A stretch of 64,000 nucleotides of DNA. Source: a virus. The stretch covers positions 42,513 to 106,512 of IMG/VR virus record IMGVR_UViG_3300028536_000001. One strand, given 5' to 3'. The position numbers were made by a program, and so were the translations under genes. Shown piece by piece: positions 2,753 through 64,000 of the stretch; position 1 is the first letter of the stretch, and every line of letters begins with the position of its first letter. Below the pieces are notes generated by a model, which was not told the DNA's origin, did not search any database, and saw nothing but the letters and a program-made list of their open reading frames with translations.

Positions 2753-3859
2753 ATGATTACCTATACTTATAAAATTCGTCCAACCAAAGCACAAGAAGTT
2801 AAACTTTTGGAAACACTGGACTTAACTCGTAAACTTTATAATGACGGTCTTCGAGAATTGATTGATCATTACGAGAAAATAGGAAAATATCTTCATAGAT
2901 ACGATCACGATAAACTACATAATTCAAAAAGACATCCCACTCTTCAAGGATTTGTAGTAGATGAAACATTAAATCGACTGCATAAATCTTTTGCAGATTT
3001 TTTTAGAGGCATAAGAGAAAAACGTAAAGTTGGGTTTCCTCGTTTTAAATCGCAAGATCGTTGGCATAGTTTTTCTTCTTCTTGTTCGGGCGGATTGACT
3101 TTGCGTGGAACTTTATTTTATGCGGGAAAAAAAATGGGAGGAAAAATTCGAGTTAATGTTACTCGGCCTCTCCAAGGTAATCAAAAGATATCACGTATTC
3201 TCAAGAAACCATCAGGCTGGTATCTTCAAATCGTAACTGATTATGAAAAACCTAAACTAGAACCAAATACTCAATCAATTGGCTTGGATTTTGGGATTAA
3301 AAATCTTGTTGCTGATAGCGAAGGAAACTTCGTAGAAAATCCACAGTTTCTAAAGCAGTCGCTAAAGAAACTTAGAATTGCACAGCGCTCCAAAGACCGT
3401 CGAAAAATAGGGTCTAATCGTCGCAAAAAAGCAACACAAGTTGTATCCAACGTTTACGAGATAGTTCACAATCAGCGCCTCGACTATTATCATAAAGTAA
3501 CTAGACGATATGTCAACGACTGTGGTCTGATCGTAATAGAAGATTTAAAACCATCGAATATGATTAAAAACCACAACTTAGCTCGTTCAATTATGGATAG
3601 CAGTTGGGGAATGCTAAGAAATCTACTTGAAGTCAAAGCGGCAGAAGCTGGTCGTCAAGTAATCGCAGTACCACCACATTACACATCTCAAAAATGTTCT
3701 AAGTGCGGAGAAATAGTTCAGAAATCATTAAGCGTTCGCACTCATTCTTGTCCTTGTGGTTACATCGATGATCGAGATGTGAACGCAGCAAAGAATATCT
3801 TAGGGGCCGGGTTGGCCCTTCAGGCGTTAACGTATGGCACTAGCCAACGCGTTGCCTGA
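2753..3859 (+). mobile_element. tnpB: IS200/IS605-family TnpB (OrfB), no TnpA
   Basis: 368 residues, typical length for TnpB, the RNA-guided endonuclease of IS605-type elements. It has the N-terminal YKIRPTKAQE motif, RuvC Asp in GLDFGIKN, RuvC Glu in VIEDLKPSN, a zinc finger (CSKCG...CPCG) and the final RuvC Asp in DRDVNAAKNIL. All key residues are present, so the protein may be active. No TnpA lies beside it, so it may move in trans or persist as a homing-type nuclease. Its base composition looks AT-richer than neighbouring genes. Exact element ends cannot be set without an empty site. Confidence 0.9.
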
Positions 3860-9847: not shown

Positions 9848-10026
9848 TATTTGATATCATACTACGTCTTTTACCCGATATAATACCGAGAGGTTGCGGC
9901 TTGTTTATGGCCGTGTACGCGACCTACTTAGTGTTTCACTATCCAACGAACGGGCATGAACTGCTGCTAGCATTATTGCTGTTTGTGCTGACAGCATTTA
10001 CTTGGCCCGTGGAAATTAGACCATGA
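9844..10026 (+). CDS. Small membrane protein
   Basis: 60 residues with two hydrophobic stretches (GLFMAVYATYLVF and LLLALLLFVLTAF) separated by a short loop. Sits between replication genes with ATGA overlaps on both sides. Function unknown. Confidence 0.5.
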   Translation: MIFDIILRLLPDIIPRGCGLFMAVYATYLVFHYPTNGHELLLALLLFVLTAFTWPVEIRP

Positions 10027-11072
10027 ATATTGTTCTACCAACTCTTAAACCGCTCATCAAACGCGTTGCTGCGGTCAAGTCTGAGGTAATTATCCTGGAT
10101 ACCGAGCATGGCATACTGGCCGCTAAGGAACAGAACCTAGCCGCCTGGGTTGAGGACGAGTCCCTGAAAGATTCAGAAAAAGTGGTATACTTTTTCCCAA
10201 GCCGAAAGTTCACAACCTCCGTTAACCGCATGTCTGGAATCCTATCTGTCCAGAAAACGGACAAGGGTTATTCTCTTGTCTCAAACAAGACCAGAATCGA
10301 TTTGGAAGAAGCAAAAACCGCTTGGCGGTACGAGCCTGCTGATGCCTTGCAAATCTGCCTCAACACGGCAATTTTACAAGAGCTGATCAAGTTCGTCCAA
10401 ATTGCTCCAGATTCCAAGCAAACGGGGTTGACATATTCTGGGATGGTCTCTTTGGTCGGCACGGAAGATCCGCTCGGGGGGTCAATCGAAGCAATCGCAA
10501 CGGATGGTAAACGTATCGCAAGTTTATCGATTCCTGCGGATGTGCAACAATCCTTTTCGGTGCTGTTACCTTCGTCACTAATTCCAATAATTCCCACACT
10601 TTCTGATGAAAAAACCTTGCTTTTTGACGACTCTCGTGTTAGTATTATTAAGAGTGGTAAATTTACTGCGCGTGCGAACAAATTTACGGATAAATTTCCA
10701 GATGCAAAACGTTTGTTTCCAACAGGTTGTGATTTTATTGCAAGAGTGGATGCAGGAGAATTCCGCGAAGCGCTTGGCCGCTTAGAAGCTGTAATGAACG
10801 AGGAAACCAGGGCAGTCAAGTTGACGTGGGCGCAGAATCTTGAACTTCGTACCGGAAACCAGAGTACGCACGGAAAAGATGAAATTGCGTACCAGACCCT
10901 GCGGGGAAGAGGAAACGAGTTAGCGTTTACTGCCATCTTTGACTGGAAATTCCTGAACGATTTCTTTGAACGAGTAGAAGGACAAGTAACCTGTAGTTAC
11001 TCGGTAGGTAAAAATTTCATAGTACTTCAGAGTAAAGAGAAGAAATATTTGTTAGCGAGGATGGAAAAGTAG
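10023..11072 (+). CDS. DnaN-like sliding clamp
   Basis: 349 residues, close to the size of bacterial beta clamps. Clamp-like signatures are IEAIATDGKRIASL near residue 155, VLLPSSLIPII near 180 and KFPDAKRLFP near 225. It would encircle DNA and tether the polymerase. No polymerase gene is in this window, so it may work with host polymerase III or one encoded elsewhere. Divergent; annotation rests on these motifs, length and position after the primase-helicase. Carries a perfect-arm 17-bp palindrome at 10247. Confidence 0.7.
   Translation: MNIVLPTLKPLIKRVAAVKSEVIILDTEHGILAAKEQNLAAWVEDESLKDSEKVVYFFPSRKFTTSVNRMSGILSVQKTDKGYSLVSNKTRIDLEEAKTAWRYEPADALQICLNTAILQELIKFVQIAPDSKQTGLTYSGMVSLVGTEDPLGGSIEAIATDGKRIASLSIPADVQQSFSVLLPSSLIPIIPTLSDEKTLLFDDSRVSIIKSGKFTARANKFTDKFPDAKRLFPTGCDFIARVDAGEFREALGRLEAVMNEETRAVKLTWAQNLELRTGNQSTHGKDEIAYQTLRGRGNELAFTAIFDWKFLNDFFERVEGQVTCSYSVGKNFIVLQSKEKKYLLARMEK
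10247..10263. repeat. 17-bp palindrome copy
   Basis: TGTCCAGAAAACGGACA, perfect arms; codes VQKTD in the clamp. Confidence 0.7.
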
Positions 11073-31963: not shown

Positions 31964-32776
31964 TTAAAACACCACGCTTACTAACTGACCTGTTGGCGGT
32001 GCAACAGAAAAGTCCATTTTCCAGACACCTGAATATAGATTGAGAGTATAGTCGGCCAAAGGAGATACAAAAGATCGATTCACGTATACATCTACATACA
32101 AACTTGTTGGAGTTCCGCCTGTCAATAGAAATTGGGTAGTAGCTGAATTTGATATCGGGGTAACATTGTAGTTTTCCCGAGTTAAGAAGACAGTGTTGTC
32201 GTACACAGCAAAAACTACAGAATTTACTCCAGGAGCAACTACAAAAATAACATGCCATACTCCCGCTATATAGTTCAGCGCGTAATCAATAGTAGGAATC
32301 TGATACACACCATCTATGTAAACATCTATATAAGCCGCTTGAGGAACGCGAGTAGGAAAACTAAAAGTAGTTGCAACACCAGTTGCAGGGTTTGGAGTTA
32401 GGTAAAACATTGACCTAGCATCATTGACCGCATACACAACCCATATTGCCTGTCCGGTTAACGGAGGAGTTACAAAAGTAATTACCGTACCAGATACGGT
32501 ATAATGTATGTTGGGTTGTTGAAGAATTCCCGCTACGTATACATCTACATAAAGGGGTAGAGGTTGTAGCGGGTTTACAACTGTAAACTGCGCAGCAACT
32601 CCGTTGGCCGCAGGTGAAACCGCATAGCAGTTTCGGTTGCCTGTGGAGGATGTTACTGCTGAAGCTATAGTAAGCGATCCACCTAATGTAACAGTTCCGC
32701 CGCCAGTAAGTCCGTCTCCAGTATTGATAGTAATTCCGCTGTTTGACGAAATTGGATTGGGAAATAGCTGGGGCAT
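31964..32776 (-). CDS. Tail fibre/adhesin with three beta repeats
   Basis: 270 residues. After GDGLTGGGTVTLGGSLTI, three copies of a roughly 75-residue beta module occur, each with [LY]YVDVY[VI]-like strand, a Y/DY-x-L strand and a PP-x-G-x2-V turn. Repeats suggest a modular fibre or receptor-binding protein. Confidence 0.65.
   Translation of the reverse strand: MPQLFPNPISSNSGITINTGDGLTGGGTVTLGGSLTIASAVTSSTGNRNCYAVSPAANGVAAQFTVVNPLQPLPLYVDVYVAGILQQPNIHYTVSGTVITFVTPPLTGQAIWVVYAVNDARSMFYLTPNPATGVATTFSFPTRVPQAAYIDVYIDGVYQIPTIDYALNYIAGVWHVIFVVAPGVNSVVFAVYDNTVFLTRENYNVTPISNSATTQFLLTGGTPTSLYVDVYVNRSFVSPLADYTLNLYSGVWKMDFSVAPPTGQLVSVVF
32011..32027. repeat. 17-bp palindrome copy, degenerate
   Basis: AGTCCATTTTCCAGACA, in the three-repeat fibre gene. 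Confidence 0.5.
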
Positions 32777-33450: not shown

Positions 33451-36400
33451 CTACTCCGAAGAAAAACCGCCCCAAAGGGTAGAGCTAAGCAATTCATTCT
33501 GAACGGCTTCTGCTTCCCACTGCACCTTAATCTGAAGATGACGGCACAACGCAGGTTCGTCAGTCTGTGAGAAATAGAACCTCTGCGCATACAGAGAAGT
33601 ACTATTGCGGTCAAGTTGTGTGGGGTCTACTACCCAGCGATTAAGCGGATCAAACACGCCTTCAATTTCGTCGCGAAGAATTCCGAGGGTTAGCGGTTTT
33701 CCTGTGCGGATAGAATCGGTAGTGATAAACCCTAGCTGCGCGAGTTGACCAGGTTGGGCCAGCACGATGGAGCCGATGGTGAAGAAAGCGGGATAGATCG
33801 ATCCGTTATCACTAAATACGCTTAGGTTGCGGTAGAGAATAGGACCGGTGCCGGAAGGACCTACTAATAGACGATGCACGCCGGGAACAGTCTCCACTGA
33901 CAGCACGGTTTTGCAGCCAGCGGCAATCGTAGCTTTAGGGCACCACGTTTCTCCGCTCTCAGGGCTTGGGGTTGGAATCATCCTAAACCAAGAACCAACT
34001 CCATCGGCTACGTAGATAGCTTTGTCTCTCGAACCGGAGACGTGCCAGGTTAGGTACGCGGAGGAAGGAGACCAAGGGGCTTGTTCAAACTGATCACCGA
34101 TTGGAAAACCGATTTCAGCCACACCAGAGGACGGTTCCAAGGAGACAATCTGGCTGTCAGAGGTAAAGAAGTATATAACACTTCCATTGATACTAAGTGC
34201 ATTATACGACAAAAGACCTATTCCTGTCAAGTAGGGGACAGGAGTTAAAGGACTTGATGAGGTTCCAGACCCGTAAATCAGGTATATATCAGATACTGTA
34301 AATACCAGCAATCCAAAGCTGACCGGTACCAAACACTTAACCAACGACGGGAAAATAGCATAGTTGGCCGGAGAAAACCCGTTTATACCATTTCCAACTG
34401 GGGTGTCTGGACCCGTGCTCCAATAAACCGTATTTCCTACGCTGCCAAAGATACGGCTTAAGTGGTAGGTTAAGTTGATGATTCCTTTAGGCGGAAGAGC
34501 ATTTTCCTGGTTCGCGGGAGCTTGGATGAAGGTATTTAACTCCTGATCAGGAGTGTTATCTGTATAGCCGTTGGCTTCGTACTCAGAAAGCAGAACCGTA
34601 TACTGAGTGTTTCCGTCTCCGGGGATCAGATAATAAGTTGCTCCGCCATCCTGCGTGCGGAAAATTGCAACATAGTCTACCTGTGGGTCAATAACTGTCG
34701 GCAAACCACCTGATATATGAACACCAGTTCCAGCAAAGAAGTTTCCTGTGGAAACCGAGACTGGACCCACGTCCGATACTGTATTATCCAGAGTGTTGAC
34801 TAGAGCAATGTAATATTTCCATCCACCATTGAAGGTAGAGATGGTGTTCGCAGGAGCGGAGGAAGCAGGACCTTGGTTAATCCAAGTTAGATTGGGGTTA
34901 TCTAGGGTCAGAGCGTTGATCGTAGTAGCGAAAGTAGGAATGGTTGTTCCCGATACGCCGGTACGGTACGGTGCTTCTTTGTTTGAGTTCGGATCTACGA
35001 TGCTGGTTGTTGTTGTGTAGTTCGTAGCCGCATGCCAAACAAAGTCTGACGCTGGACCCACATTCCACCAAGTCAAGTTTCCCGAAGATTCAGTTACCGA
35101 AGGATAGGATGGAGCAAAGGATGTTGTCCAAGCGGGCCAAATAGGTTGAGTTGATCCGCTCTCCGCAGGCTCTGGTACGATATTATTAGTGTTGCAGGTC
35201 ATCTGGAAAGTCTGACCGCTGTGAAACCAATAATCGTAGTTTATCTCTACTGGGTAAGTTCCTGCTGTCGGGAAATAAATAACTGCGGTATCAGTATTTG
35301 AACCAGATACGTTATTTGCAGTCAGGATAGGATATCCCAAAACGAAAGTCTGAGTTTGTCCAAAGGAGTTGTTATTCGGACCAGAAATCAGTGTTGGGGT
35401 ATTACCTGATGATACCGATGCAAAAGCAGTTGGACTGGTTTCTGCGATTGGACCATAGTCTGCGTGGCCGATGGTCGCGGTAAACTGATTTCCACTGATG
35501 GATGTTACGGTAACACTTAACGTATTCAGGAATGTAGCATTTGTCAGTCCCGAAAAAGTAACGCTAACTCCAACATTCAGAATGTTTGTTAGAGTTTCAT
35601 TTGATGTTATCGTAAGTACATTTGATGTGATTTGAACATCGGTAACTAATACATTTAGTACGCCCGCTCCAATGCCCCAGAACATACCGTCTTGGTGAAC
35701 GATGGTGAAGGTGTACTGACCTGCCGCTGGGATTACAAATCCAGTTTGAAGAGAAAGCTGATAATCAGATGGAAACCCAGGAAAAGGTACTGTTGATCCT
35801 GTGATTTCTCCTGCGCCATTTAGAGTGGCCCACGCTACTGGCCGCTGATCTCCGATAGTAGGAGGATTGAACAACAGACTGTTTCCAGTAGCGGATGCTA
35901 AAGCTGAACCTACTGAAGTAGGATAAACATTTGTTACCGCTCCGACTGGACCTGTATGCGGAGAAGCCCATAGGTAAGCCTGAACTGCGCTCGAAAGTTG
36001 AACTCCTGTGAAATTCTGTAACTCAAATAGACAAGGGGTTCCAGAAGCAGCTTCTACAAGAAAATGACCTGGAGTATACGCGGTATGAGCGTTCCAACTC
36101 AAGGATGCAGAAGTCTGGACCATTGTCCAAGTTACAGTGTTATCTGGAGTGGTGTTTCCTACGCTGGTTGCCCACGTCGGGGTAACAGTACCACTTTTGC
36201 CGCCAGTGGTAAGCTTCTGAAGATTGCCGTTGGCATCAACTATGACTTGAGGTAGCGAATACCAAGTATTTGGCTGCCAAGCTAATGCCGCTCCAGATAC
36301 GACCAAATCCGGAGCAGAAGTCGGAGGAGCGATCCCCCAGTTTTCAATCTCAACTCCGCGATTTCTCCACTGCGCGGTTCCGTCATTTGTGGTGCCAAGT

Positions 36401-37281
36401 AAAGTAGTATTCCAGGTCGGTTGGACTGGTCCTGTTACCGGAGTTCCGCCGACTAGAACAGTTGCTGTTCCTGTATCAGGGCTTGAATAGGTACCCGCGT
36501 ACGTAAAAGCAGCAGTAAATTGATTTGTAGAAATCGTCAGTACTGTGATCGGAGTTACGTTTGGATCAAGATTGTTCAGGAACGTGGCGTTTGTCAGTCC
36601 TGAAAATACAATTTCGTTTCCTACTTGAATTGTCGCGGGCAGGTTCGCCGAGGATGTAACAGTAAGAACATTCCCTGTGATCGAAATATTGGTTACAGGA
36701 AAAATCGTATTGATAAGTTGCTGAATATTTCCGTTTGGATCAAGAATAAATGTATTCAGGTTGTACGGGATTAAATCGTATGCAGTATTTGGCTGCCAAG
36801 TGAGTAGTGTATTTAACCACTTCTTCTGATCGACGCCGTTCCCAAAGTACAGTGAGTTAGCCACACTCTGCATGTAGGTCTGACCAGCCCCTGCGGATTT
36901 TGTCCACACAATGGACTGCGTGCTAGGACCCGTGCCATCATATAGAGCGTTGGCTTGGTCCACCATTACTTTTATTTGTTCTACGTTCTGGTTGAAGAGA
37001 CGGAACTCGTAAAAGTAGTCAGGCGAAGTCCATGTGGCTGAGTTATAAATCGATAAACCAGGACGGCGGGCTATAGTTAGACGGGTAGTTATCTCGACGT
37101 TTAGACCGTCGATGAGAGTGTCTAATCTGTTGCCGAAGTATAGACTTTCTTGGCGGCTACCTGCACCTCGCAAAATATTGCGATTGGTGTAAAGGCCCGA
37201 AAAAAAATATTCACACCAGAGAGGAGCAAAGCGAGTTGGTTTAGGAGCCTGCGCTCCGTGCATCGACAGGGTATTAGGCAT
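33451..37281 (-). CDS. Large tail protein, gp12-like (tail tube/nozzle)
   Basis: 1276 residues. The start WCEYFFSGLYTNRNILRG...RLDTLIDGLNVEITTRLTI RRPG matches the opening of phage tail-tubular-B-like proteins. The middle has inserted beta modules, including two copies of an FSGLTNATFLN repeat and several W-x-PNT-Y-x-L repeats resembling carbohydrate-binding modules. The C-terminal 300 residues resume propeller-like strands. Likely forms the tail nozzle and carries adhesive domains. Confidence 0.65.
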   Translation of the reverse strand: MPNTLSMHGAQAPKPTRFAPLWCEYFFSGLYTNRNILRGAGSRQESLYFGNRLDTLIDGLNVEITTRLTIARRPGLSIYNSATWTSPDYFYEFRLFNQNVEQIKVMVDQANALYDGTGPSTQSIVWTKSAGAGQTYMQSVANSLYFGNGVDQKKWLNTLLTWQPNTAYDLIPYNLNTFILDPNGNIQQLINTIFPVTNISITGNVLTVTSSANLPATIQVGNEIVFSGLTNATFLNNLDPNVTPITVLTISTNQFTAAFTYAGTYSSPDTGTATVLVGGTPVTGPVQPTWNTTLLGTTNDGTAQWRNRGVEIENWGIAPPTSAPDLVVSGAALAWQPNTWYSLPQVIVDANGNLQKLTTGGKSGTVTPTWATSVGNTTPDNTVTWTMVQTSASLSWNAHTAYTPGHFLVEAASGTPCLFELQNFTGVQLSSAVQAYLWASPHTGPVGAVTNVYPTSVGSALASATGNSLLFNPPTIGDQRPVAWATLNGAGEITGSTVPFPGFPSDYQLSLQTGFVIPAAGQYTFTIVHQDGMFWGIGAGVLNVLVTDVQITSNVLTITSNETLTNILNVGVSVTFSGLTNATFLNTLSVTVTSISGNQFTATIGHADYGPIAETSPTAFASVSSGNTPTLISGPNNNSFGQTQTFVLGYPILTANNVSGSNTDTAVIYFPTAGTYPVEINYDYWFHSGQTFQMTCNTNNIVPEPAESGSTQPIWPAWTTSFAPSYPSVTESSGNLTWWNVGPASDFVWHAATNYTTTTSIVDPNSNKEAPYRTGVSGTTIPTFATTINALTLDNPNLTWINQGPASSAPANTISTFNGGWKYYIALVNTLDNTVSDVGPVSVSTGNFFAGTGVHISGGLPTVIDPQVDYVAIFRTQDGGATYYLIPGDGNTQYTVLLSEYEANGYTDNTPDQELNTFIQAPANQENALPPKGIINLTYHLSRIFGSVGNTVYWSTGPDTPVGNGINGFSPANYAIFPSLVKCLVPVSFGLLVFTVSDIYLIYGSGTSSSPLTPVPYLTGIGLLSYNALSINGSVIYFFTSDSQIVSLEPSSGVAEIGFPIGDQFEQAPWSPSSAYLTWHVSGSRDKAIYVADGVGSWFRMIPTPSPESGETWCPKATIAAGCKTVLSVETVPGVHRLLVGPSGTGPILYRNLSVFSDNGSIYPAFFTIGSIVLAQPGQLAQLGFITTDSIRTGKPLTLGILRDEIEGVFDPLNRWVVDPTQLDRNSTSLYAQRFYFSQTDEPALCRHLQIKVQWEAEAVQNELLSSTLWGGFSSE

Positions 37282-37287
37282 TTAAAC

Positions 37288-38145
37288 TTAGCAGATGATG
37301 TTACTTTCTATTTTCCATATACGACGTTTAACGGTTCCAAGACTAACATCAAAATATTTAGATATGTCGCTAAACGAAAAATTTTTGGCACGCAAAGAAA
37401 CTATTTCTTCATCAGATATTTCTTTTTCAAACCATTTAGACTTATCAGAACGATTTCCTGGAATCTTTGTTTTCAGTACTATCCCGCTTCTGAGAAGTCT
37501 ATGCTTTATAGAATCTACAGATGTTTTATAATCCCGCGACAGCATAGATAAGTTGTAACCATTAAGATATTTATGAATTATCTCTTCAGTTGGAAGATTT
37601 TGTATCTTTAATGGAGATCTTTTTATAAGAACATTTTCATGCGTAAGTCTAGTTTTGATGAGTGTGAGACTGCGTTCAAACATCTTTGCAATTTCAGCCA
37701 TATTGAATCCATGCTTGTACAGATCAATAATTTGACTGTTGTTTATGCTGTGGTCGTACGACCAATGCTTACTCTTACCGCACTTTTCACCCATTTTCTT
37801 TCTGAGTTCCGGAGGTACAGAATTAACCAGTCTAGTGTTGTAGCCGATATCTTCATTCATGGTGTCAAACAGATAGATGTAATATTTTTCTACCGCATCT
37901 AAATGTTCTTGACTGTGGGTAACCGCGAGTACTTCTTGGATAAAATCGTCTTTTCCATACTTCAGTATGGCTCTCTGTAAGTGACCATACTTATCAAAAG
38001 GCGCTCGGTACACATGCTTACTCCAGCGCAAATGAAGAGAGTGGATCGTCTGTCCGATGTAAATTTTCTTAGTTGTTTTGTTAGTAATCGCGTAAACTAT
38101 ACCATATCCATGATAGTTTCTACGCTGTTTTTCACTTGTTCTCAT
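37288..38145 (-). CDS. GIY-YIG homing endonuclease
   Basis: 285 residues. GIVYAITNKTTKKIYIGQT is the GIY-YIG motif; LHLRWSKH and AILKYGKDDFIQEVL continue the domain, with Glu in DAVEKYYI. The C-terminal part has three helix-turn-helix-like DNA-reading units (IIDLYKHGFNMAEIAKMF and similar). It stands between two tail genes and has its own promoter, typical of a free-standing homing endonuclease. Confidence 0.9.
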   Translation of the reverse strand: MRTSEKQRRNYHGYGIVYAITNKTTKKIYIGQTIHSLHLRWSKHVYRAPFDKYGHLQRAILKYGKDDFIQEVLAVTHSQEHLDAVEKYYIYLFDTMNEDIGYNTRLVNSVPPELRKKMGEKCGKSKHWSYDHSINNSQIIDLYKHGFNMAEIAKMFERSLTLIKTRLTHENVLIKRSPLKIQNLPTEEIIHKYLNGYNLSMLSRDYKTSVDSIKHRLLRSGIVLKTKIPGNRSDKSKWFEKEISDEEIVSLRAKNFSFSDISKYFDVSLGTVKRRIWKIESNIIC

Positions 38146-38191: not shown

Positions 38192-39280
38192 CTACAAACC
38201 CGCATAACCAGTTCCATACGGCCATCCGGGTCCTATACTAACACCCCAGTTGGCGCTAACTCCTCCACCTGTAAGTCCCGTTGACGGATACAGTGTGAAG
38301 CCTTCTTGTTCTCGGTCCGCTGCTTTCAAAGCAGTCATAATTTGTTCTTCCCATTTAGCGTATTGGGTAGTTGCTTTAGGAGAACCTACGTGGTCATAAC
38401 ACATCGCTAAAAATCCACTACGGAATAAGTACGCGTACTCATCTGGAATCGGATCTATAGTCTGTTGGATGGTGACAAAAAGAGATGCTTTGCGTTGATA
38501 CACGGGCCACATTAACCATGCTAGCCCTGACAGCGGTGGTAGCGGGTTTAAGCGTATAGTGTATCCATTAGAAGGTGCAACGGTCCAAGTTACGGTTCCA
38601 TCGAGAACTGTAGCGCCTGCGGGAGATTCTGGAGGTAACACAGGTTGAACTGTTCCAGTAGTGCCGTAGGGTGCTGTTGGGGGCAAATTTATAGGACCGT
38701 TTACAAATCCAGGACTTTCTAAGTTCAGATTCAGTACAGTAGAATCGATGTACAGTATGTTACCATTCGTATCTACGAATGATTGAATTGGAGACTTAGG
38801 AGTCATCGACTGACCATAACCACACAAAAACGCAGTATTTGGAGTCCATACGCCGAAGGTAGCAAGGTAGTTCTGTACAAAACAAATATTAAAAGGGTTA
38901 GCCTGAATTGAGGTAAGATTTATGTCCCTAAGAACTTCAAGAGCATACATCGGCTTTGGAGCTAGGTTACCGTTATTCGTAGAGTTGTTTATATCTATCA
39001 TGCGGCAAGATTCTAACCAACTAATATCAGTTACCTGCGTTGGGTAATCCTGCTGAAGTGCTACAGTCATAAAGGGTGGAATATACGCACGATTCCATTT
39101 CCAATCCATACCCTGTGCCAGAATCTTCTGCATAACATCGTTCGCGAAGGTAATCGCAGGTTCCTGGCTGAAACCACTGGTCCCGAGCACAGGTACACAC
39201 TCAGGGAAGGTGCGAGCCCAGTTGACTATTTGCTGGAGGGTAACTGACGATCTGGGGGGAACTAGAGGAAAGACTGGCAT
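38192..39280 (-). CDS. Tail adaptor-like protein (paralogue of 45202 gene)
   Basis: 362 residues. GMDWKWNRAYIPP near residue 60 parallels FAWRWNRAYVSP in the protein encoded at 45202-45930, and both end in helical gp11-like segments. The middle has a beta insertion with W-x-PNTAFLCGY. Probably a second tail-ring protein. Confidence 0.6.
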   Translation of the reverse strand: MPVFPLVPPRSSVTLQQIVNWARTFPECVPVLGTSGFSQEPAITFANDVMQKILAQGMDWKWNRAYIPPFMTVALQQDYPTQVTDISWLESCRMIDINNSTNNGNLAPKPMYALEVLRDINLTSIQANPFNICFVQNYLATFGVWTPNTAFLCGYGQSMTPKSPIQSFVDTNGNILYIDSTVLNLNLESPGFVNGPINLPPTAPYGTTGTVQPVLPPESPAGATVLDGTVTWTVAPSNGYTIRLNPLPPLSGLAWLMWPVYQRKASLFVTIQQTIDPIPDEYAYLFRSGFLAMCYDHVGSPKATTQYAKWEEQIMTALKAADREQEGFTLYPSTGLTGGGVSANWGVSIGPGWPYGTGYAGL

Positions 39281-39289
39281 TCTATAAAC

Positions 39290-41596
39290 CTAATAAATTC
39301 TGTAGTCAATAGTACTATTATCCGAAGTATTAAGCGCCCCTGTAGTAGTCAAGGAGTTAAACACGACACTAACACCACTATTTATAGTACCGAGAGATAA
39401 AATACCTGGTGTACCACTCATACTATGATAATTATAAGAATAGCGTGCTTGAGAAAAAGCATGAACTGTATTAAGAGTAAAAGTTCCGTTTACTAACGTT
39501 ATAGTGCCGATCTCACCGAGCGAAGGTCCAGTAGTTACTGTGACACTCCAATTATTAGAGCCTGTAGTTGTAAAGATAGCGCCATAGCCAGGATGAAGAA
39601 GAAAACCGTTAGCCGGTCCACTAGGAGCCACGAACGGGATATCACTTCCGCCAGGATTATTGGAATTATTAATTGTAATTTGTTTACCTGCTATACATCC
39701 TGACGGCAAAGTAAGTATAATAGTATTACCTGCGTTAACAGTTTGATTGTTACACGTTAAAGTAACGCTAGTAGAAACGGAAGCATAATTTAACAAAGTA
39801 AAATCAAGAGAGCAGGTACCGCCCGCCAAGCAAACAACTGGATTTACTGTAGCGTTCTGGATAGTAGTACCTTGTGATGAAGGTAATACAATTGGTATTT
39901 GTGCAGTAGGACTTAAAAAAGCATTAGCCATTTCATGTTGACCTAATACACTCAAGTGGATAGCGTTATTTACTCCTCCATATTCAGGAAAAGTACCATG
40001 CACCCAATTCCAATTTTCAATATAATTTACAGGAAAACCCGCAGCTTGGTCCGCAGACACAGCGGTACGAATATCGGCAGAAAGTGCTGCTACTCCTCCT
40101 CGAATAAGGTTATCAAGTTGTAAAGGTACATCACTCACCCATACTCTAGGAGTATTTGTTTGATAATTTGTTTGATACCAAGATGGACCTAAACCAGAAC
40201 CAAGAATCGTTACTTTAGCCGCATTTGTTGTTACTATATGAAAATGATATGTAGTTCCTATTGGAAGAGATACACTATAACCAGGAAACATAATACTTGT
40301 TATGGCGTAAGTGAAATTATTAATAGGACTGTACAATGTAACTGCATTTTGAGGGGCACTAGAACCGACTCCACTGGTAATAAGAGCACTATCACTATTC
40401 CGAATGAGTTGATAAGAAAAAGCTCCCGTGCAAGAACTGCATATCTGATACCACAATACTATTGATTCTGCGCCCAAAGGCATTGTAAATGAAGGTAAAT
40501 CAAGAATAGCTCCGTTAGTGGAAGCTGTCGCTCCTAACATAGTCGTGTAAGTATTATCAGTAGTCCATCCTGCTCCTAGTGTACCTGCACCGGCAGCTTG
40601 TTTATTTGAAGAAGCAACAGACCCCCATTCGTCCATTGCTTGGTACATACGAATAAAAACAGGTTCATATGTAGATGTTGTTGGTGCTTGGTTAAAAAAA
40701 TGCGAAGCGTCATTAGATCCGATTAAAATTGTGTTCAGCGCTGTAGAACCTGTATCTTCATTCCAAGTATTGATAAATTTATTTTGAGCTTCAACTAGTG
40801 CAGTTCCACCGGCACCGTAATTAGTTGTTGCAGAAGTTACACCAAGCTGTTGAGATATATAATCTACATAGCAGGTACCAAGATGTGTAACATTGTTGCA
40901 AAGTACACCTACAGCATGATCTCCCTCCGTATTTGAATCGCCGTAAGCCTTGTAAGAAGTCCACGAATAATTAACAATATTATTTGACAAAGCGGAAGTA
41001 GTGACTGAAGGTGCTATAGCAGGAGGAAAACCAAAATCACTTGCACCTGTAACTGGATTAAATACAACAGCATTATTTTGAGCACCTACAACTCCAGTAA
41101 ATACTCCTCCTTGATTAGTCTGAACAGAACCAGAAGGTGAACCCGGAGTGCTGCTTCCTCCTCCGTTAAAAGTGCACGTAGTGGCGACACAAGACACGCC
41201 AGACCCAGTAAAAACAAAAACTCCTTGAACTCCATTTATGCTGGTAAAACTGGAGTTTGTACTACTGATAAGAGTAATAGGAAAGGTGTAGCATTGACTT
41301 AACGGTGCGCATACTTGTTCTATGTACTGACCTGGAGAAGCATAGTAGGAATAGTTTCCGTTTATATCGGCAAAAAATGGTTCTGGAAGAGCGACAGTCA
41401 GTGCTTCGTCGGAATATACAGTTACGGGACTGGTGCATTGTAGTTGTGCGTTGAAGGTACAAACCGTAATTTGAGCGTTTGGTACAAGCTTCGCATAACT
41501 GGAAGAATTTTGTATAGCAACAGAAATTCGCTGCTGGTTTTGACCAAACAGAAAAGGAGACAGCATAAATAAAGCAACTAAGAGAAGTTTTTTCAT
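39290..41596 (-). CDS. Tailspike with SGNH esterase domain and signal peptide
   Basis: 768 residues. The first 19 residues (MKKLLLVALFMLSPFLFGQ) form a Sec signal peptide. Residues about 20-110 share a Cys-containing domain with the next spike (IQNSSSYAKLVPNAQITVC). An SGNH hydrolase follows: AYGDSNTEG (nucleophile), NYGAGGTAL, LIGSNDA, and NNAIHLSVLGQHEMA at the C-terminal side, where the usual Asp of D-x-x-H is Asn. It would remove acyl groups from surface polysaccharide. C-terminal beta domain. Signal peptides are rare on tailspikes. Confidence 0.75.
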   Translation of the reverse strand: MKKLLLVALFMLSPFLFGQNQQRISVAIQNSSSYAKLVPNAQITVCTFNAQLQCTSPVTVYSDEALTVALPEPFFADINGNYSYYASPGQYIEQVCAPLSQCYTFPITLISSTNSSFTSINGVQGVFVFTGSGVSCVATTCTFNGGGSSTPGSPSGSVQTNQGGVFTGVVGAQNNAVVFNPVTGASDFGFPPAIAPSVTTSALSNNIVNYSWTSYKAYGDSNTEGDHAVGVLCNNVTHLGTCYVDYISQQLGVTSATTNYGAGGTALVEAQNKFINTWNEDTGSTALNTILIGSNDASHFFNQAPTTSTYEPVFIRMYQAMDEWGSVASSNKQAAGAGTLGAGWTTDNTYTTMLGATASTNGAILDLPSFTMPLGAESIVLWYQICSSCTGAFSYQLIRNSDSALITSGVGSSAPQNAVTLYSPINNFTYAITSIMFPGYSVSLPIGTTYHFHIVTTNAAKVTILGSGLGPSWYQTNYQTNTPRVWVSDVPLQLDNLIRGGVAALSADIRTAVSADQAAGFPVNYIENWNWVHGTFPEYGGVNNAIHLSVLGQHEMANAFLSPTAQIPIVLPSSQGTTIQNATVNPVVCLAGGTCSLDFTLLNYASVSTSVTLTCNNQTVNAGNTIILTLPSGCIAGKQITINNSNNPGGSDIPFVAPSGPANGFLLHPGYGAIFTTTGSNNWSVTVTTGPSLGEIGTITLVNGTFTLNTVHAFSQARYSYNYHSMSGTPGILSLGTINSGVSVVFNSLTTTGALNTSDNSTIDYRIY

Positions 41597-41599
41597 TAT

Positions 41600-44500
41600 T
41601 TAAAAAGCGGTCCAAGTACCTGCGATACACCGATATGTAGTATTTGCGGTGGTAGTTCCTGCGGTATTGCTATAAAAACTACCGTTTACTGCACACGAAC
41701 CGGATGGCGTGGTAGCTCCAAAAGTCCAAGTAGGCCCCGAAGTTCCCAAAGTAATACCTTTCACAAAGTAGTGCATCTGCTCGGATATATTTGCTCCTGG
41801 TTCCCATATTTCTGCTTGAACCAAATTGCCCGATCCCAGAGGATCTTGTACCATCATGGACTGAGCGGCTGAAACAACTCCCCCAACCGGTGTTCCTAGC
41901 TGGGTGCAGATCAGGCCGCCAGCGTAAATGAATCCGGAGGCGTCTGGTCCTTGCCCTGCCGCAGAGTATGGACGGAACATATAGGCTCCGCAATAGGCTC
42001 CGATAGAAAGTTGTCCTGGAGTTCCTTGTGTGCCTGTGGCTGCGCGAGTAGACCACTCTGGACCATAGGGTAGAGAGGTAAGCGTTCCGTACAGGGTCGT
42101 GTATTTCTTTTGCATCGTCTGAACATCCACTGAAGCAGCCATGATGCCGCCCGGATCGAGATACGGTGCTATACCGTTTTCGTAAATGTTGTTGTTCTGG
42201 GTAAACGGATAGTTTCCAGTCAGAGCAGACTCATAGAGAACTGCCGAAGTGATACTTGCATCGGTCGTCGAGAATGTATTGTTGTGGATGTCAATCGATT
42301 GCAGGACTTGTGGAATGAACGAGTATGGATGCAGATCAATCGCAGCGTGTATGCCCTGGATTGGGTTGATGTTCGTGAACTGCACATTGTCCACAGTGAC
42401 GTGATCACAGTTGGTGATAATCATTCTGACACCAACCATGTGGCCGTGACTTATTCCAATATCGGTGCAGGTAGCTGGCTGACTGGCTGCTCCTACTTCC
42501 AGCAACTGATCGAAGCCAGATATGTCCTGCGGAGTCACTCCCGGTGCGGTAGCGGTAGGATCGAACTCGAAGTTGCTCAGTTGATTGTGCTGCGGCATGA
42601 CAGTAGTCACACCTACGATGTCAAATCCGATGAATCCGAATTGAGGACCATTTGCGCCCTTGATAATGATCTGGTCCGCATCGCAGCTTATACAGTCAGC
42701 CATATCGATGCCGCCAGCCGTAGCGCGTGGCGTCTCTCCCCAATATGGACGGCCAAGCAGCGTCATGCGAGATAGGTGACAGTTCACGCAACGGCCTGTC
42801 GCGAAAGAGTCTGAATAGTCTGAAATTAGGCCGTCTGAGACAAAGACATTTGTGGTCGGGTTGAGGATGATCTGCTGTTGCGGTATGCCGCTTGCTCCAG
42901 AGCCTGTTCCTGCGGTCAAGGCTACAGTAGGTGCTGGGTCTCCTGCCACATAGTAGCCGGTGCCCTTATCGATCATGTTTGTACCGATCCACACACCGTT
43001 ACCGATTCCGACTGAGCAGGTAGCAGGTGGAATCGTGGCTGAGCCTCCACCACCCATTGTGCAGGTTGGTGCAGTATATCCAGATGTCACATTTGTGAAT
43101 TGAATCGTCTTTACGTAGAACGTTACGACTCCCGTCAACAGCGGGGCAGTTACCTGCGTGCCGGAAGTCAGATTAAGCTGAAAAGCGGTCTGCGACGAGA
43201 AATACCCATCGCCGCCTACCAATGTCCCCGTTTGGCACCCTGAAATAGCGCTTCCAGTGAATTGAGCTGGGCAAGTTCCGCCCGTACCGCCTACTTGTGT
43301 TAGGGCAAGCGTGTCTGTGTTAGCGTAGTTCTCGCCAGCATTCTTGACGCTACATCCTGCTCCAACACCGCCCGGCCCGACCGTAAGTACCACAAAGGCT
43401 CCGGTTCCTGTGGCTGAGACAGGAGTTCCTGTTACGTATCCAGAGACATAATTAGTTCCACCGGTAAATGAGCAGGAAACGAGGCCGCCGCCAGCGTAGG
43501 TTGCGATAAGGATTCCACCCGTTCCTGGTTCGTTGTTCCAAATCAGGGTTCCGGCAGGTGATCCAGAAAATACACCACCGTTCTGCACAGTAACCGAGGT
43601 GATTTGACCAGAGATGGTTGCAGATGCGGTTGTATTTTTGCCTGTAGAATCTGTAATCTTTACCCAGGGCGGACCCGTAAAGTCGTGCGCCGTAGTCAGC
43701 AAGGTCAGATTGTTAGGCACTCCATTCGCGATGATGGGTGTTCCTGTGGCCTGTATGCCGCCTGCGTGAGGCGCAGAGAAAGCTAGGACCGCCGAGCCGT
43801 TGGTAGGGTATAAAGATCCACCATTGGCAATTGAGGTACCACCAATACCGTTGGCGAATACGCCACCCTCATCAATTGACCCGGCCTCGCATCCAAAATT
43901 CGGATTGATTGTGTCGCAGTGTTCTACTTTGAAATGGTGGATCCAGAGATTGTTGACCGATCTGAAATCGAATGGCCTGCTCATACCATTCTCAAAGGTC
44001 ACATTCCACATGCGAATATCGCCTGTAGACGCTCCCGTAGGGTCACTTTTTACTTCGGCGTAGAAACAAGTCAGCTCAGGGCAGTTTTGTCCCGCACGGT
44101 TGCCGTCGAAGTAGATATCATGAATATTGATGTACTTCGATGGCTGACGCAGATACATCAGCGTTTGAATGTTTGTGCCCGTCCCGCGAAAGAAGTTGCA
44201 GGGCTGGCCATTCACTCCACCGAATATATTGAAATTGTTTGCCTGAACGTCGATAACGCCAGCAACCTGGCCTTGGTCCTGCCCAGTGAAGTTGAATGTC
44301 GTTCCCGAGCAGTCGATAGTTACATTGTCCTGGGTGATCTTGACCTGCGTGGTCCAGTTTCCAGTGAGTCCCTGTGTCTTAACTACCTGCCCCGGACCAG
44401 CCGCAGCGATAGCGTTGATTACCTGCTGGCCCTGATCTGAGCCCGGCTCTAGGAATGCCCATACGCTGCCATTTACACCCGGAGAACTCAGACTATGAGT

Positions 44501-44953
44501 AGAGGGATTTATAGTGATCGACGCGTCGGAAATCAATCCACCCGTGGAACTGTAGGCTTGAATAGAGTAAAGAGGAGGATTAGGAGATGCTCCGCCGCCC
44601 CCACCAGATCCTCCCGAAATCAAAGTAAGGGGACGAGTGTAGCATTGGTTTGCAGTTATGCAGATTTGCTCAATGTACGTGCCTGCGGGAGCAAAATAGT
44701 CGTAGTTTCCGTTTCCATCCGCTAAAAACGGATAAGTGATCGGGGATGTAAGTGCCTGATCTGAATAAATCGGCACGGGAACAGAGCACTGAAACTGGGC
44801 ATTGTAGTTACAAAGAGTAATCTGGGCGTGCGGGATTAACTTTGCGTAAGAAGATACATTCTGTATTGCAGTACCTTCCCTCTGCTGATTCTGTTGTGCC
44901 AGAGCCAGACAAGGGAAAAGCAGTAGAAGTAGTACCTTAGCGAACTTGGTCAT
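41600..44953 (-). CDS. Beta-helix tailspike with signal peptide
   Basis: 1117 residues from ATG 44953 (an ATG at 44980 is possible). Residues 1-19 (MTKFAKVLLLLLFPCLALA) are a signal peptide; the next 90 residues match the paralogous N-domain of the SGNH spike. A right-handed beta-helix follows, with INIHDIYFDGN, NLWIHHFKVEHC, VTVDNVQFTN and similar rungs, as in pectate-lyase-like depolymerases. Gly/Thr-rich insertion in the middle. Probably degrades capsule or exopolysaccharide. Confidence 0.75.
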   Translation of the reverse strand: MTKFAKVLLLLLFPCLALAQQNQQREGTAIQNVSSYAKLIPHAQITLCNYNAQFQCSVPVPIYSDQALTSPITYPFLADGNGNYDYFAPAGTYIEQICITANQCYTRPLTLISGGSGGGGGASPNPPLYSIQAYSSTGGLISDASITINPSTHSLSSPGVNGSVWAFLEPGSDQGQQVINAIAAAGPGQVVKTQGLTGNWTTQVKITQDNVTIDCSGTTFNFTGQDQGQVAGVIDVQANNFNIFGGVNGQPCNFFRGTGTNIQTLMYLRQPSKYINIHDIYFDGNRAGQNCPELTCFYAEVKSDPTGASTGDIRMWNVTFENGMSRPFDFRSVNNLWIHHFKVEHCDTINPNFGCEAGSIDEGGVFANGIGGTSIANGGSLYPTNGSAVLAFSAPHAGGIQATGTPIIANGVPNNLTLLTTAHDFTGPPWVKITDSTGKNTTASATISGQITSVTVQNGGVFSGSPAGTLIWNNEPGTGGILIATYAGGGLVSCSFTGGTNYVSGYVTGTPVSATGTGAFVVLTVGPGGVGAGCSVKNAGENYANTDTLALTQVGGTGGTCPAQFTGSAISGCQTGTLVGGDGYFSSQTAFQLNLTSGTQVTAPLLTGVVTFYVKTIQFTNVTSGYTAPTCTMGGGGSATIPPATCSVGIGNGVWIGTNMIDKGTGYYVAGDPAPTVALTAGTGSGASGIPQQQIILNPTTNVFVSDGLISDYSDSFATGRCVNCHLSRMTLLGRPYWGETPRATAGGIDMADCISCDADQIIIKGANGPQFGFIGFDIVGVTTVMPQHNQLSNFEFDPTATAPGVTPQDISGFDQLLEVGAASQPATCTDIGISHGHMVGVRMIITNCDHVTVDNVQFTNINPIQGIHAAIDLHPYSFIPQVLQSIDIHNNTFSTTDASITSAVLYESALTGNYPFTQNNNIYENGIAPYLDPGGIMAASVDVQTMQKKYTTLYGTLTSLPYGPEWSTRAATGTQGTPGQLSIGAYCGAYMFRPYSAAGQGPDASGFIYAGGLICTQLGTPVGGVVSAAQSMMVQDPLGSGNLVQAEIWEPGANISEQMHYFVKGITLGTSGPTWTFGATTPSGSCAVNGSFYSNTAGTTTANTTYRCIAGTWTAF

Positions 44954-45200
44954 TCTTATCACTGAAACTAGCCACTGCATCGTGGGCTTTGTTGGTTACG
45001 TAGAAGGCAGTCATGACAGAAAGTTGTGTCAAGAGGGTTGCGTTATCTACAAAGTGGTGGCCATTGTGGAAGAAAAACAGCGCGTCCATTACCAGAAAGT
45101 ACAGAACTATCAACAGGCTTACTGCCCGTCCAAAACTGATGGCTGCGTTGGCCCCTAAAGCCTGTTCCAATAGCCACTTAATCCAAAGTATAAATTTCAT
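44937..45200 (-). CDS. Small membrane protein (holin candidate)
   Basis: 87 residues. A hydrophobic start, a membrane span (AVSLLIVLYFLVMDALFFF) and a weaker second span (ATLLTQLSVMTAFYV), then a charged tail overlapping the spike start by 17 bases. Size and topology fit a holin. Confidence 0.5.
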   Translation of the reverse strand: MKFILWIKWLLEQALGANAAISFGRAVSLLIVLYFLVMDALFFFHNGHHFVDNATLLTQLSVMTAFYVTNKAHDAVASFSDKNDQVR

Positions 45201-45201
45201 G

Positions 45202-45930
45202 TTACGATCCTGCGCGAGCAGATCGCGCTATCTGGGCAGTGCCCATAGTATTCTGTTGCTCTGCTTGTGTAATCATTTGATGGGAGAGGAAAATATTCTT
45301 CTCGGTTTCAGTCAATCCATCATTGGCTGCGGTTACCTGCCGCAAAAACATTTGAAAGGCGAACGCATACTTCTCTTCGTCGATATACTCGTAAGCCAGA
45401 GCCTTCATTCCCTGCGTATAAATATAGGACATATAATCTGGAAGGGGATACCAAGTCTCAGTCAAGGAATCAAACTTAGGCGCGGCCTTTTGATATATGA
45501 TATTCAGTATGTAGGCTTGATCTGGTGCGGGAAAGAGGCGGAATGTAATATTTCCGTTGTCGTCGTCCAGGTTGGCGGTAATACGGGTAGGTTGGTTAAC
45601 TAACTGGTCTCCAGCAACCACCATTTCGACTTCCAGTTCAATCGACTGGCCGGGCTGACCATTTACGATAGGAAAGTTCAACCATGCTTTTTCAATCCAA
45701 CCAAAATCGGGAAGTTTTACTTTGTAATCAGCTACTCCGATTGTACATGTGACTGGAGACACGTATGCCCGGTTCCATCTCCACGCGAACGGGGGAGCCA
45801 GAATGAACTGTCTCACCCAATCAGCAGAGAGGAATGCCGGGTCACCGTCGTTAACAAGAGTTAGAGGGGCGTTCCTGATGAAGCGCTGAACATATTTTAC
45901 AGTGCGCTCCAATGTAATGGTCGATGCCAC
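45202..45930 (-). CDS. Tail adaptor, T7 gp11-like
   Basis: 242 residues. FAWRWNRAYV, QAYILNIIYQKAAP, YIYTQGMKALAYEYIDEEKYAFAFQMFLRQV resemble phage head-tail adaptor/tail tubular A-type proteins. Related to the gene at 38192. Expected at the portal-tail junction. Confidence 0.65.
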   Translation of the reverse strand: MASTITLERTVKYVQRFIRNAPLTLVNDGDPAFLSADWVRQFILAPPFAWRWNRAYVSPVTCTIGVADYKVKLPDFGWIEKAWLNFPIVNGQPGQSIELEVEMVVAGDQLVNQPTRITANLDDDNGNITFRLFPAPDQAYILNIIYQKAAPKFDSLTETWYPLPDYMSYIYTQGMKALAYEYIDEEKYAFAFQMFLRQVTAANDGLTETEKNIFLSHQMITQAEQQNTMGTAQIARSARAGS

Positions 45931-61762: not shown

Positions 61763-64000
61763 TTAACCTATCAAGCCGCCGCCCAAAATGTTATCAAGGC
61801 CGGGAGCGTACGTTTGAGACAAAATGTCCTCAGAAATTTTTGGTTCATCGAAAACGTGAGTAAATACTCCACCTTGTCCGGGTCTGCCCCACGGATCACA
61901 GTTTTCTTCAAATATTAAATTGTATGCAGCTCGTTCTTTCGTCCAGCCTGTCCAACTTGGAATTCCCTGTTCGATAACCTTCATCGACATTCTAGGGGCA
62001 TATCTCGGCTGGTAGGATAGTGCATCAGGAATATCATTTTTCGTCTGCCTAGTACCTTGGCAGCGAATAAACTCGTCGTAGACTATCTGGCGAAACGGAA
62101 TATGGTACGCAAACTTGAACAAGCCGTATTCCATCAACGGTTGGAGGGCGGCCATGCGAATGCGTTTCGCGTCGTTCTGTGTATCCGGTTTGATCCAATC
62201 GATTTTGGTGCAAACTTGAATCACATACGGATCGTTTGTCTTCAGCGCCTCTGCTTCAATCGTTGGGCCAAGCAGGTTAGATCCACCCGCATCTTCAATT
62301 CCAATTACGTACGGATGGTGCTTGCGGGCAAACTCTACAATCGCCTTTGCCTGCGCTAAAGGAGTTATAAATCTATCGCGGATAAGGTCGTTCGTGTATC
62401 CGACGCCTTTTTCATCCCATATAACCGAAGTGCCGACTGTAAAATCTCTGTATTTCTTCTTGCTGAACGCAAAATCCCACGTGTGGGAAATCGGACCCCT
62501 GTGCGGCATTTCGGTAAAAGGAACTGTGCTTCTTAAAAGCAGGGGAAGGTCGAAAACTGCTTCTTGTTCGGGTAGAGGGTTCTGATTCATCTGACCTTCA
62601 AATGAACCATCTTCCATTTTTCCTTGACGATCTTCGTTATACATGACCATCAAAGATGAATAGTCAAGTACTTTCGGCATCACAAAGATGCAACCCTCTT
62701 CTCCAGCTTCTTTGTAAAAATCAACGGGAGGTATACCCTTTTTTACTAATGCTTCGCGAACTTCAGGTTTAACCTGCATCGCTCTGCCAACCAATATCAA
62801 ACTCTTGTTGGCTGGATTTTCAGTCAGTTCCCACCCAAGACCGGAAGTTGTTTTTAGGCTACCAACATTGCTGGAAATTTCAGCCCCATAAATATCCGAA
62901 TTCTTTGAGCAGCATCCATCTGCAATGTAATTACCTGTTTCGGTCTGGAAAAAGTATACGGATTGTTCGCCGCAAGGTTCAATCGATACAAGTTTGTCTT
63001 CTTTGGTAAACAATTGACCAAAAAGACTTTCTGATATTTTTGTAGACCTAATTGGTGATACTTCTCGCAGGAATCTATACCGTTCAGGCCAACCTCCGAG
63101 TATGGTAAATTGACATTTGTCTTTCCAGTGCTCTTGTCCGTATTTGCCCTTGCTCGGTTCGCTCCAGTTTTCGTGAAACTCAAAACCGAGGTTGCTAAGA
63201 ACTTCTCGTATTTTATTAAGTACATTGGGGTTATGTTTGGTTTGTGCAATAGATATAACACCGCTCGGATAACCCGGATTTCCTCCAAATGATCCTTCAC
63301 CGTCATATATACCGGATAACCAAGACGCTTCCCACGAGTTATTCCTATCTTTGGGGATCAGCAATCTACGGACGGAAGCTAACTTACCGTAAGAAAATGA
63401 AAGAATATTATATCCTTCGTCCTTATTAGCGTTGACACTTCCCTTACCACCCCACCATTTGTGAGTTTCAGTAGCTACGACGCTTCTTCCAGATTCAAAC
63501 GTGTACTTAAATACCGGACGAGAATCGTGCTTACCGGTGGCTAGCACTTTAGAAGGAGTAAGAAATCTTTTATGTCCTTTTCCGTTACGGTTAGTCTTAA
63601 AAGACCACCCTACCAGACTGTCGCCCTCAGTTATATCTTCTATAGGCTTTTGTGACCAATCTGCCATTAAGATAGGAGTTCCAGCGACTAGACAGTCGTT
63701 ATATCTTGTTCCTATTTTTATCGCGTATCCCCACTTACGCAGCATCTTTTTATTGATACGGTAATTTTTACCTACCTTCATACACTGATCTTCGTTTTCA
63801 GAGTTTAGGTTGGATACCATATCATCGCCAACCAGAAGTTCAAAGTGGAATCCGGAAAGCGTGGACTCGATAGACGAAGCCATGATGGTTGGTTCTGGTC
63901 GTCTTACTTCTTTGGCTGCCCAAACTGGACAAGTGAACTCAAACTGATTGCCTAGATTTTTTTCTTCTACGCAAAATTCAGGAAAGAAAAGATTCATTAG
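61763..64000 (-). CDS. terL: Terminase large subunit, partial, with intein
   Basis: The gene runs off the right edge; the frame is still open at 64000, so the Met at 63997 is internal and Walker A lies outside. Walker B is seen in LLVGDDMV. Extein GTRYND, interrupted by the intein, resumes as SDIYG, giving the conserved GTRYNDSDIYG. The nuclease domain shows TWDFAFSKKKYRDFTVG, VIGIEDAGGS and KNDIPDALS, three acidic RNase H-like positions. It packages and cuts phage DNA. Confidence 0.9.
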   Translation of the reverse strand, partial: LMNLFFPEFCVEEKNLGNQFEFTCPVWAAKEVRRPEPTIMASSIESTLSGFHFELLVGDDMVSNLNSENEDQCMKVGKNYRINKKMLRKWGYAIKIGTRYNDCLVAGTPILMADWSQKPIEDITEGDSLVGWSFKTNRNGKGHKRFLTPSKVLATGKHDSRPVFKYTFESGRSVVATETHKWWGGKGSVNANKDEGYNILSFSYGKLASVRRLLIPKDRNNSWEASWLSGIYDGEGSFGGNPGYPSGVISIAQTKHNPNVLNKIREVLSNLGFEFHENWSEPSKGKYGQEHWKDKCQFTILGGWPERYRFLREVSPIRSTKISESLFGQLFTKEDKLVSIEPCGEQSVYFFQTETGNYIADGCCSKNSDIYGAEISSNVGSLKTTSGLGWELTENPANKSLILVGRAMQVKPEVREALVKKGIPPVDFYKEAGEEGCIFVMPKVLDYSSLMVMYNEDRQGKMEDGSFEGQMNQNPLPEQEAVFDLPLLLRSTVPFTEMPHRGPISHTWDFAFSKKKYRDFTVGTSVIWDEKGVGYTNDLIRDRFITPLAQAKAIVEFARKHHPYVIGIEDAGGSNLLGPTIEAEALKTNDPYVIQVCTKIDWIKPDTQNDAKRIRMAALQPLMEYGLFKFAYHIPFRQIVYDEFIRCQGTRQTKNDIPDALSYQPRYAPRMSMKVIEQGIPSWTGWTKERAAYNLIFEENCDPWGRPGQGGVFTHVFDEPKISEDILSQTYAPGLDNILGGGLIG
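62900..63694 (-). other. Intein in TerL with LAGLIDADG endonuclease
   Basis: 265 residues from Cys (CLVAGTPIL, block A) to Asn followed by extein Ser. Block B is VVATETHKW; a homing endonuclease motif WLSGIYDGEGSF has both acids; the end GNYIADGCCSKN carries Lys where His is usual before Asn. Removing it restores the conserved terminase motif. Confidence 0.9.

Follow-up and report, generated by a model that had tools for sequence, protein, structure and literature searches.

The spike slot and its surroundings

The window analysed here is a stretch of 64,000 nucleotides (positions 42,513 to 106,512) of the virus record IMGVR_UViG_3300028536_000001, which is 106,512 bases long and encodes an SU10-type portal (PF23899) together with SU10-type adaptors. 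On the minus strand the genes of interest run in the order adaptor 1, an 87-aa ORF, spike 1, spike 2, adaptor 2, a GIY-YIG gene and a large tail protein (Table 1). The two spikes, whose coordinates had been given correctly in an earlier sequence-only reading of this DNA, sit within the tail/structural module, and the synteny of this region is conserved across loci. The adaptor-1 profile also detects adaptor 2 in relatives, the large tail protein may be termed nozzle-like, and a family search with the 87-aa ORF gave no match. The contents of the slot between adaptor 1 and adaptor 2 or the tail protein vary from locus to locus: it can be empty, or it can hold a stand-alone domain, fibres without a signal peptide (SP) like those of phage Tunturi_3, or spikes with an SP.

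Table 1. Features of the spike slot, in window coordinates
Feature	Position	Strand	Basis
Spike 1 gene, putatively exported beta-helix-type tailspike	41600-44953	-	ORF, 1117 aa from ATG 44953; predicted SP
Spike 1 predicted Sec SP, MTKFAKVLLLLLFPCLALA	44897-44953	-	n/h/c regions, ALA-Q cleavage motif; score 12.6 with the longer start
Spike 1 putative virion (head-binding) domain, Cys48/56 and Cys98/104	44615-44896	-	PDB profile match 9vyg, AF2 model, Foldseek
Spike 2 gene, putatively exported SGNH-hydrolase tailspike	39290-41596	-	ORF, 768 aa; Lipase_GDSL E 1.8e-8
Spike 2 predicted Sec SP, MKKLLLVALFMLSPFLFG	41543-41596	-	SP score 7.6
Spike 2 putative virion (head-binding) domain	41264-41542	-	63% identity to the spike 1 copy; own iterated-profile HMM E 6e-27
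Spike 2 SGNH/GDSL catalytic blocks, residues 219-319	40640-40942	-	PF00657
Spike 2 C-terminal K1-lyase_C-like domain (weak)	39296-39514	-	PF24146 E 0.0022, under the Pfam cut-off
SU10-type adaptor 1, upstream edge of the slot	45202-45930	-	PF24175 E 6.5e-7; survey anchor
87-aa membrane-protein-like ORF, overlapping the spike 1 start	44937-45200	-	ORF list
Adaptor 2, adaptor-1 paralogue, downstream edge of the slot	38192-39280	-	PF24175 weak; synteny
Large tail (nozzle-like) structural protein without SP, conserved 3' of the slot	33451-37281	-	synteny across loci
GIY-YIG endonuclease gene, an insertion separating adaptor 2 from the large tail protein	37288-38145	-	

The beta-helix of spike 1 is without a Pfam match and its fold was assigned by reading the sequence. 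In spike 2 the motif NNAIHLSVLGQ gives SGNH block V as NxxH, not DxxH, so that the enzyme may have no catalytic Asp or have it at another place. On the point of a homotrimer, the one observation is the weak K1-lyase_C match at the C-terminus of spike 2. An AlphaFold model of the first 573 codons of this spike, made from the single sequence, reached a pLDDT of 31, too low to be of use. No cultured relative of either full-length spike was found among 50,697 phage records. The same phage has a third SP-bearing SGNH-like spike (locus L007, G000:C1:1289-4540), which has 16 mature Cys and lacks the domain shared by the first two; near it, outside the window, lies a predicted exported trypsin-like protease (L007:5610-6392, record G000:C1:5610-6392; PF13365 E 1.3e-8) with a predicted SP and 6 Cys.

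Elsewhere in the window, a small SP-less protein encoded 3' of the tail protein (31964-32776) matches a tail-fibre PHROG over a short stretch and may be a further component for receptor binding. The terminase large subunit (61763-63997) has a LAGLIDADG match at residues 222-273, which is likely to represent an intein or an inserted homing endonuclease. An IS605 OrfB/TnpB-like protein (2753-3859; PF07282, PF01385) and a protein with a match to the C-terminal domain of the DNA polymerase III beta-clamp (10023-11072) are also encoded.

Signal peptides and cysteine numbers

Both spikes begin with a predicted Sec SP, as the sequence-only reading had proposed, with cleavage expected at MTKFAKVLLLLLFPCLALA-QQNQQR in spike 1 and MKKLLLVALFMLSPFLFG-QNQQR in spike 2. 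The n-, h- and c-regions and an AXA-like cleavage site were recognised in both by our own von Heijne-type script, which is not SignalP: it combines a weight matrix with rules, calls an SP at a score of at least 5 and overlooks some clear SPs (for example in L083, 965 aa, and L012, 421 aa). A lipoprotein signal was rejected for the window spikes since no Cys stands directly behind the cleavage site. A search of open-licence PMC papers found no report of signal peptides on tailspikes.

It could be argued that these hydrophobic N-termini are not working SPs but products of chance or of a mis-set start, or that they are uncleaved hydrophobic docking peptides. The predictor is home-made and the starts of the window spikes lack a strong Shine-Dalgarno sequence, points which would fit such a reading, but we consider it very improbable in view of the conservation of position, the rarity of SP calls in neighbouring genes and the cysteine numbers described below. 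An earlier ATG for spike 1 at 44980, proposed by the ORF finder, also keeps the SP, and a mis-set start was rejected on the grounds that both candidate starts retain it and that in L006 a TTG start with a clean ribosome-binding site (AGGAG) upstream places the SP at the very N-terminus. The SP is retained ahead of the shared domain in IMG/VR relatives, including the more distant L005 and L006 (49-51% identity in the domain), where additional SP-bearing genes adjoin the domain-carrying gene. The letters of the SPs have diverged between the two spikes and among relatives, and the position before the domain is conserved; such divergence beside a conserved domain is as expected for real signal peptides.

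The distribution of SPs was surveyed in 80 IMG/VR loci, which were fetched by adaptor 1 because selection by the trait itself was to be avoided. Among same-strand genes SPs were called in 6 of 723 upstream of the adaptor as against 61 of 378 in the first 8 kb downstream; the antisense ORFs of the surveyed loci gave 10 calls in 258.

Export of a chain, followed by cleavage and complete disulfide bonding, should leave an even number of Cys in its mature part. In the first survey this number was even in 40 of 41 SP-bearing proteins, over a range of 4 to 48 Cys, and downstream genes without an SP comprised 66 with even and 73 with odd numbers. Spike 1 has 26 mature Cys, as has its identical copy in L010, and spike 2 has 14. 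When SP proteins from all loci, Tunturi_1 included, were clustered at 40% identity, 60 were even, 9 odd and 4 had no Cys; among non-redundant proteins with at least 6 Cys the ratio of even to odd was 50:2 with an SP and 61:43 without. Of 25 proteins in which the Cys number of the SP itself is odd, 23 still had an even mature part, which argues for removal of the SP. Since modules are shared among spikes, the strictest grouping was by any shared homology, with the longest member taken from each component, and this member was even in 18 of 20 components (p 2e-4). Regions without homology to other members were even in 44 cases and odd in 12. In a second sample, of loci fetched by the shared domain, the new SP-bearing proteins were again mostly even (8, 8, 10, 12, 14, 16, 18 and 20 Cys), the exceptions being one odd family with 5 Cys and one protein with an uncalled start and 13 Cys. 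An oxidising cytoplasm as the cause of even numbers was rejected, since SP-less proteins of the same phages, at 61:43, show little excess of even counts. Taken across relatives, the even counts, the strongest independent line of evidence, suggest export, removal of the SP and full pairing of Cys in disulfides.

The domain behind the cleavage site

That the two spikes share an N-terminal Cys-containing domain was confirmed, the copies being 63% identical over 92 aa (E 3e-34). This domain of about 92 aa starts exactly at the predicted cleavage site in both spikes and has four invariant Cys, C48/C56 and C98/C104 in spike 1 numbering. A profile built from 29 copies found tail spike chains 9vyg/9vyh in the PDB at E 6e-5 to 3e-4 and, at E 0.014, the head-binding domain of the Pam1 tailspike (7eeq). 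The sequence match spans 46 residues. An AF2 model of the spike 1 domain (pLDDT 89), when compared with the PDB by Foldseek, placed tail complexes of Pan3 and Pam1 first, with probability 1.00, a best E of 0.012 and a modest TM of 0.58; P22 tailspike head-binding structures stood lower in the list with a weaker match, and in BFVD the model retrieved tail spikes, pectate lyases and an EPS depolymerase. The profile and model comparisons point, with modest strength, to a virion (head-binding) domain rather than a part of the enzyme.

The tailspikes of the cyanopodophages Pan3 (9vyg, 9vyh) and Pam1 (7eeq) likewise have an N-terminal head-binding domain followed by an enzymatic or receptor-binding spike, but they have no SP, carry the domain at the very N-terminus and contain odd numbers of Cys (1 and 7). 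As those spikes begin with the domain, an SP would here have been placed ahead of a virion-docking domain. The P22 tailspike folds in the cytoplasm and is not known to carry an SP. It docks on a podovirus tail hub, as the window spikes would, and resembles them in the fold of its docking domain (2vky, 2xc1, 8tvr), a weak and purely structural match with a Foldseek TM of about 0.5.

Copies of the domain without an SP also exist as proteins of 99-173 aa directly after adaptor 1, and in several phages (L014, L040, L042, L046, L147 and L154) such a copy stands beside an SP-bearing spike. In the first survey 9 of 11 SP-less copies had no Cys, that in L018 retaining a single relic, and in the second sample all new copies without an SP had 0 Cys. 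SP-less copies nest inside the SP group in the domain tree, which together with their mostly Cys-free state indicates that the SP and the disulfide were lost together; within the domain alone this association rests on few events, since about two SP changes are required by the tree. In a sister group (L067, L071, L072, L075, L081, L083 and L087) the spikes have a second type of N-terminal domain (QQPQ...NGVAPGYAP...) behind the SP and adjoin stand-alone SP-less proteins of about 95 aa. In L072 and L081, which represent other subgroups, the N-terminal domain differs from the shared one and has no known match.

The suggestion that the spikes were acquired from bacterial secreted enzymes is not supported for the shared domain by the genomes searched, a comparison that covers this domain and not the catalytic modules. 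A pattern scan of genome contigs gave no relative, and 396 Acidobacteriota genomes yielded two matches, one in a prophage-like element and one an orphan island copy. The orphan (L111:810-4256), a fibre with an SP, the docking domain and 22 mature Cys, lies in an island of an Acidobacteriota genome; recombinase-like genes are close by, and other phage structural genes were not seen in that island. Some C-terminal modules of other spikes from the cassette do resemble bacterial secreted enzymes, as in L012, where GH30, InlB-like repeats and a chitobiase C-terminal domain are found.

Proposed maturation and attachment of the spikes

Among cultured phages, adaptor 1 has a single relative, that of Tunturi_3, a phage of Tunturiibacter psychrotolerans (31% identity), whose fibres in the corresponding slot are without an SP. 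In Tunturi_1, an unrelated podophage of the same host (PMC11924767), the large spike-like proteins of the tail module bear SPs: five SP-bearing genes are present there, with mature Cys numbers of 20, 10, 20, 1 and 32. In this cultured Acidobacteriota podophage and in Tunturi_2 (PP887698, PP885685), gp12, gp13, gp14 and gp17 are like the window spikes in having an SP, a richness in Cys (20, 10, 20 and 32 in the mature parts, respectively) and a place in the tail module; gp12 shows a weak match to the docking-domain profile, and the four are otherwise unrelated by sequence to the window spikes. The main text of the paper describing these phages (PMC11924767) does not mention SPs. Tunturi_1 gp11 and gp31 gave no match as anchors for further loci, and A7 as an anchor largely recovered contigs already found. 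In an Acidobacteria MAG, bacterial genes flank a prophage-like element (L095) that carries an SP spike with 18 Cys, a PHROG 'tail spike protein' match and a Beta_helix match. The Tunturi host and this element make Acidobacteriota likely hosts for the group, and the window phage, a soil phage, probably infects such a host.

The explanation that we favour, and hold to be rather probable, is that the spikes of these podophages, probably of Acidobacteriota, mature outside the cytoplasm by way of Sec and join the virions at lysis. The precursor would pass through Sec and lose its SP, and the mature chain would become fully disulfide-bonded; both steps are well supported by SP anatomy and cysteine parity, and the second would need the oxidising periplasm. 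The new N-terminus would then be the head-binding domain, as supported by homology, enabling the spike to dock on the virion. Mature spikes may be stored in the periplasm until lysis brings them together with the heads, which are filled in the cytoplasm, so that docking would be the last step of assembly. In vitro, finished heads of P22 accept tailspikes that are supplied afterwards. Attachment to the virion is our inference, and surplus spikes might be released as free enzyme, presumably acting on surface polysaccharide as judged from the beta-helix and SGNH esterase folds. Points that weigh against the favoured explanation are the modest structural match of the domain, the home-made SP predictor, the different N-terminal domain in L072 and L081, the few events behind the SP/Cys association within the domain, and the possible receptor-binding role of the SP-less protein at 31964-32776.

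The sequence-only reading proposed that the spikes may be exported as free depolymerases. Export is upheld by the anatomy of the SP and by Cys parity; the 'free' part is weakened because the domain that comes directly after the SP resembles the virion (head-binding) domain known from tailspikes and because SP-less tail fibres fill the same slot in sister phages such as Tunturi_3. In its full form this alternative would make the proteins soluble polysaccharide-degrading enzymes, exported and disulfide-bonded, that leave the cell across the outer membrane or on lysis; they would never join the virion, and their docking domain would be a relic or a means of oligomerisation. SP enrichment and Cys parity fit it equally well, and the bacterial-type modules of L012, the chitobiase C-terminal domain of Tunturi_1 gp17 and the orphan island copy speak in its favour. 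So does WceF of Pantoea stewartii (PMC7949094), a tailspike-like beta-helix protein whose export follows the removal of its signal peptide and which acts off the virion, although it differs from the window spikes in being a bacterial gene product with a Tat signal, encoded outside a phage structural operon. Against it stand the position of a docking-type domain exactly behind the cleavage site, the filling of the tail-spike slot by up to four or five such proteins, and the consequence that Tunturi_1 would be left with no obvious large spike; we regard it as a doubtful alternative that nevertheless deserves weight.

A less probable proposal, and to our minds a distinctly unlikely one, is that the exported enzymes act on the infected or lysogenic host, for example by trimming polysaccharide against superinfection or to ease release. 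The presence of one such gene in the prophage-like element L095 and the persistence of the orphan copy in another genome would agree with this, but the genes lie within a structural operon between adaptor genes, several different catalytic folds occur in each phage, and they are present also in Tunturi_1 and Tunturi_2, which form clear plaques and have no annotated integrase (PMC11924767).

Use of the host Sec pathway by a tailed phage has a parallel in Lys44 of fOg44 (reviewed in PMC6116005), an endolysin with an SP that is cleaved during infection, but Lys44 is a lysis enzyme rather than a virion spike. Extending the favoured explanation of late docking, several unrelated podophage groups, at least one of them on Acidobacteriota, might export their spikes through Sec, fold them oxidatively in the periplasm and let them meet the heads at lysis, with the SP-less stand-alone domains perhaps occupying the virion's docking site or making it ready in the meantime; we consider the case for this wider proposition to be evenly poised.

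The prevailing assumption for dsDNA phages is that their tailspikes both fold and become attached within the cytoplasm. As Tunturi_1 is cultured and forms plaques, the question is directly testable. If the explanation is true, it may give a reason why such spikes might express poorly in ordinary cytoplasmic systems. The virion would be completed outside the cytoplasm, possibly with spikes that come from other cells, and this would bear on mixed infections and phenotypic mixing.
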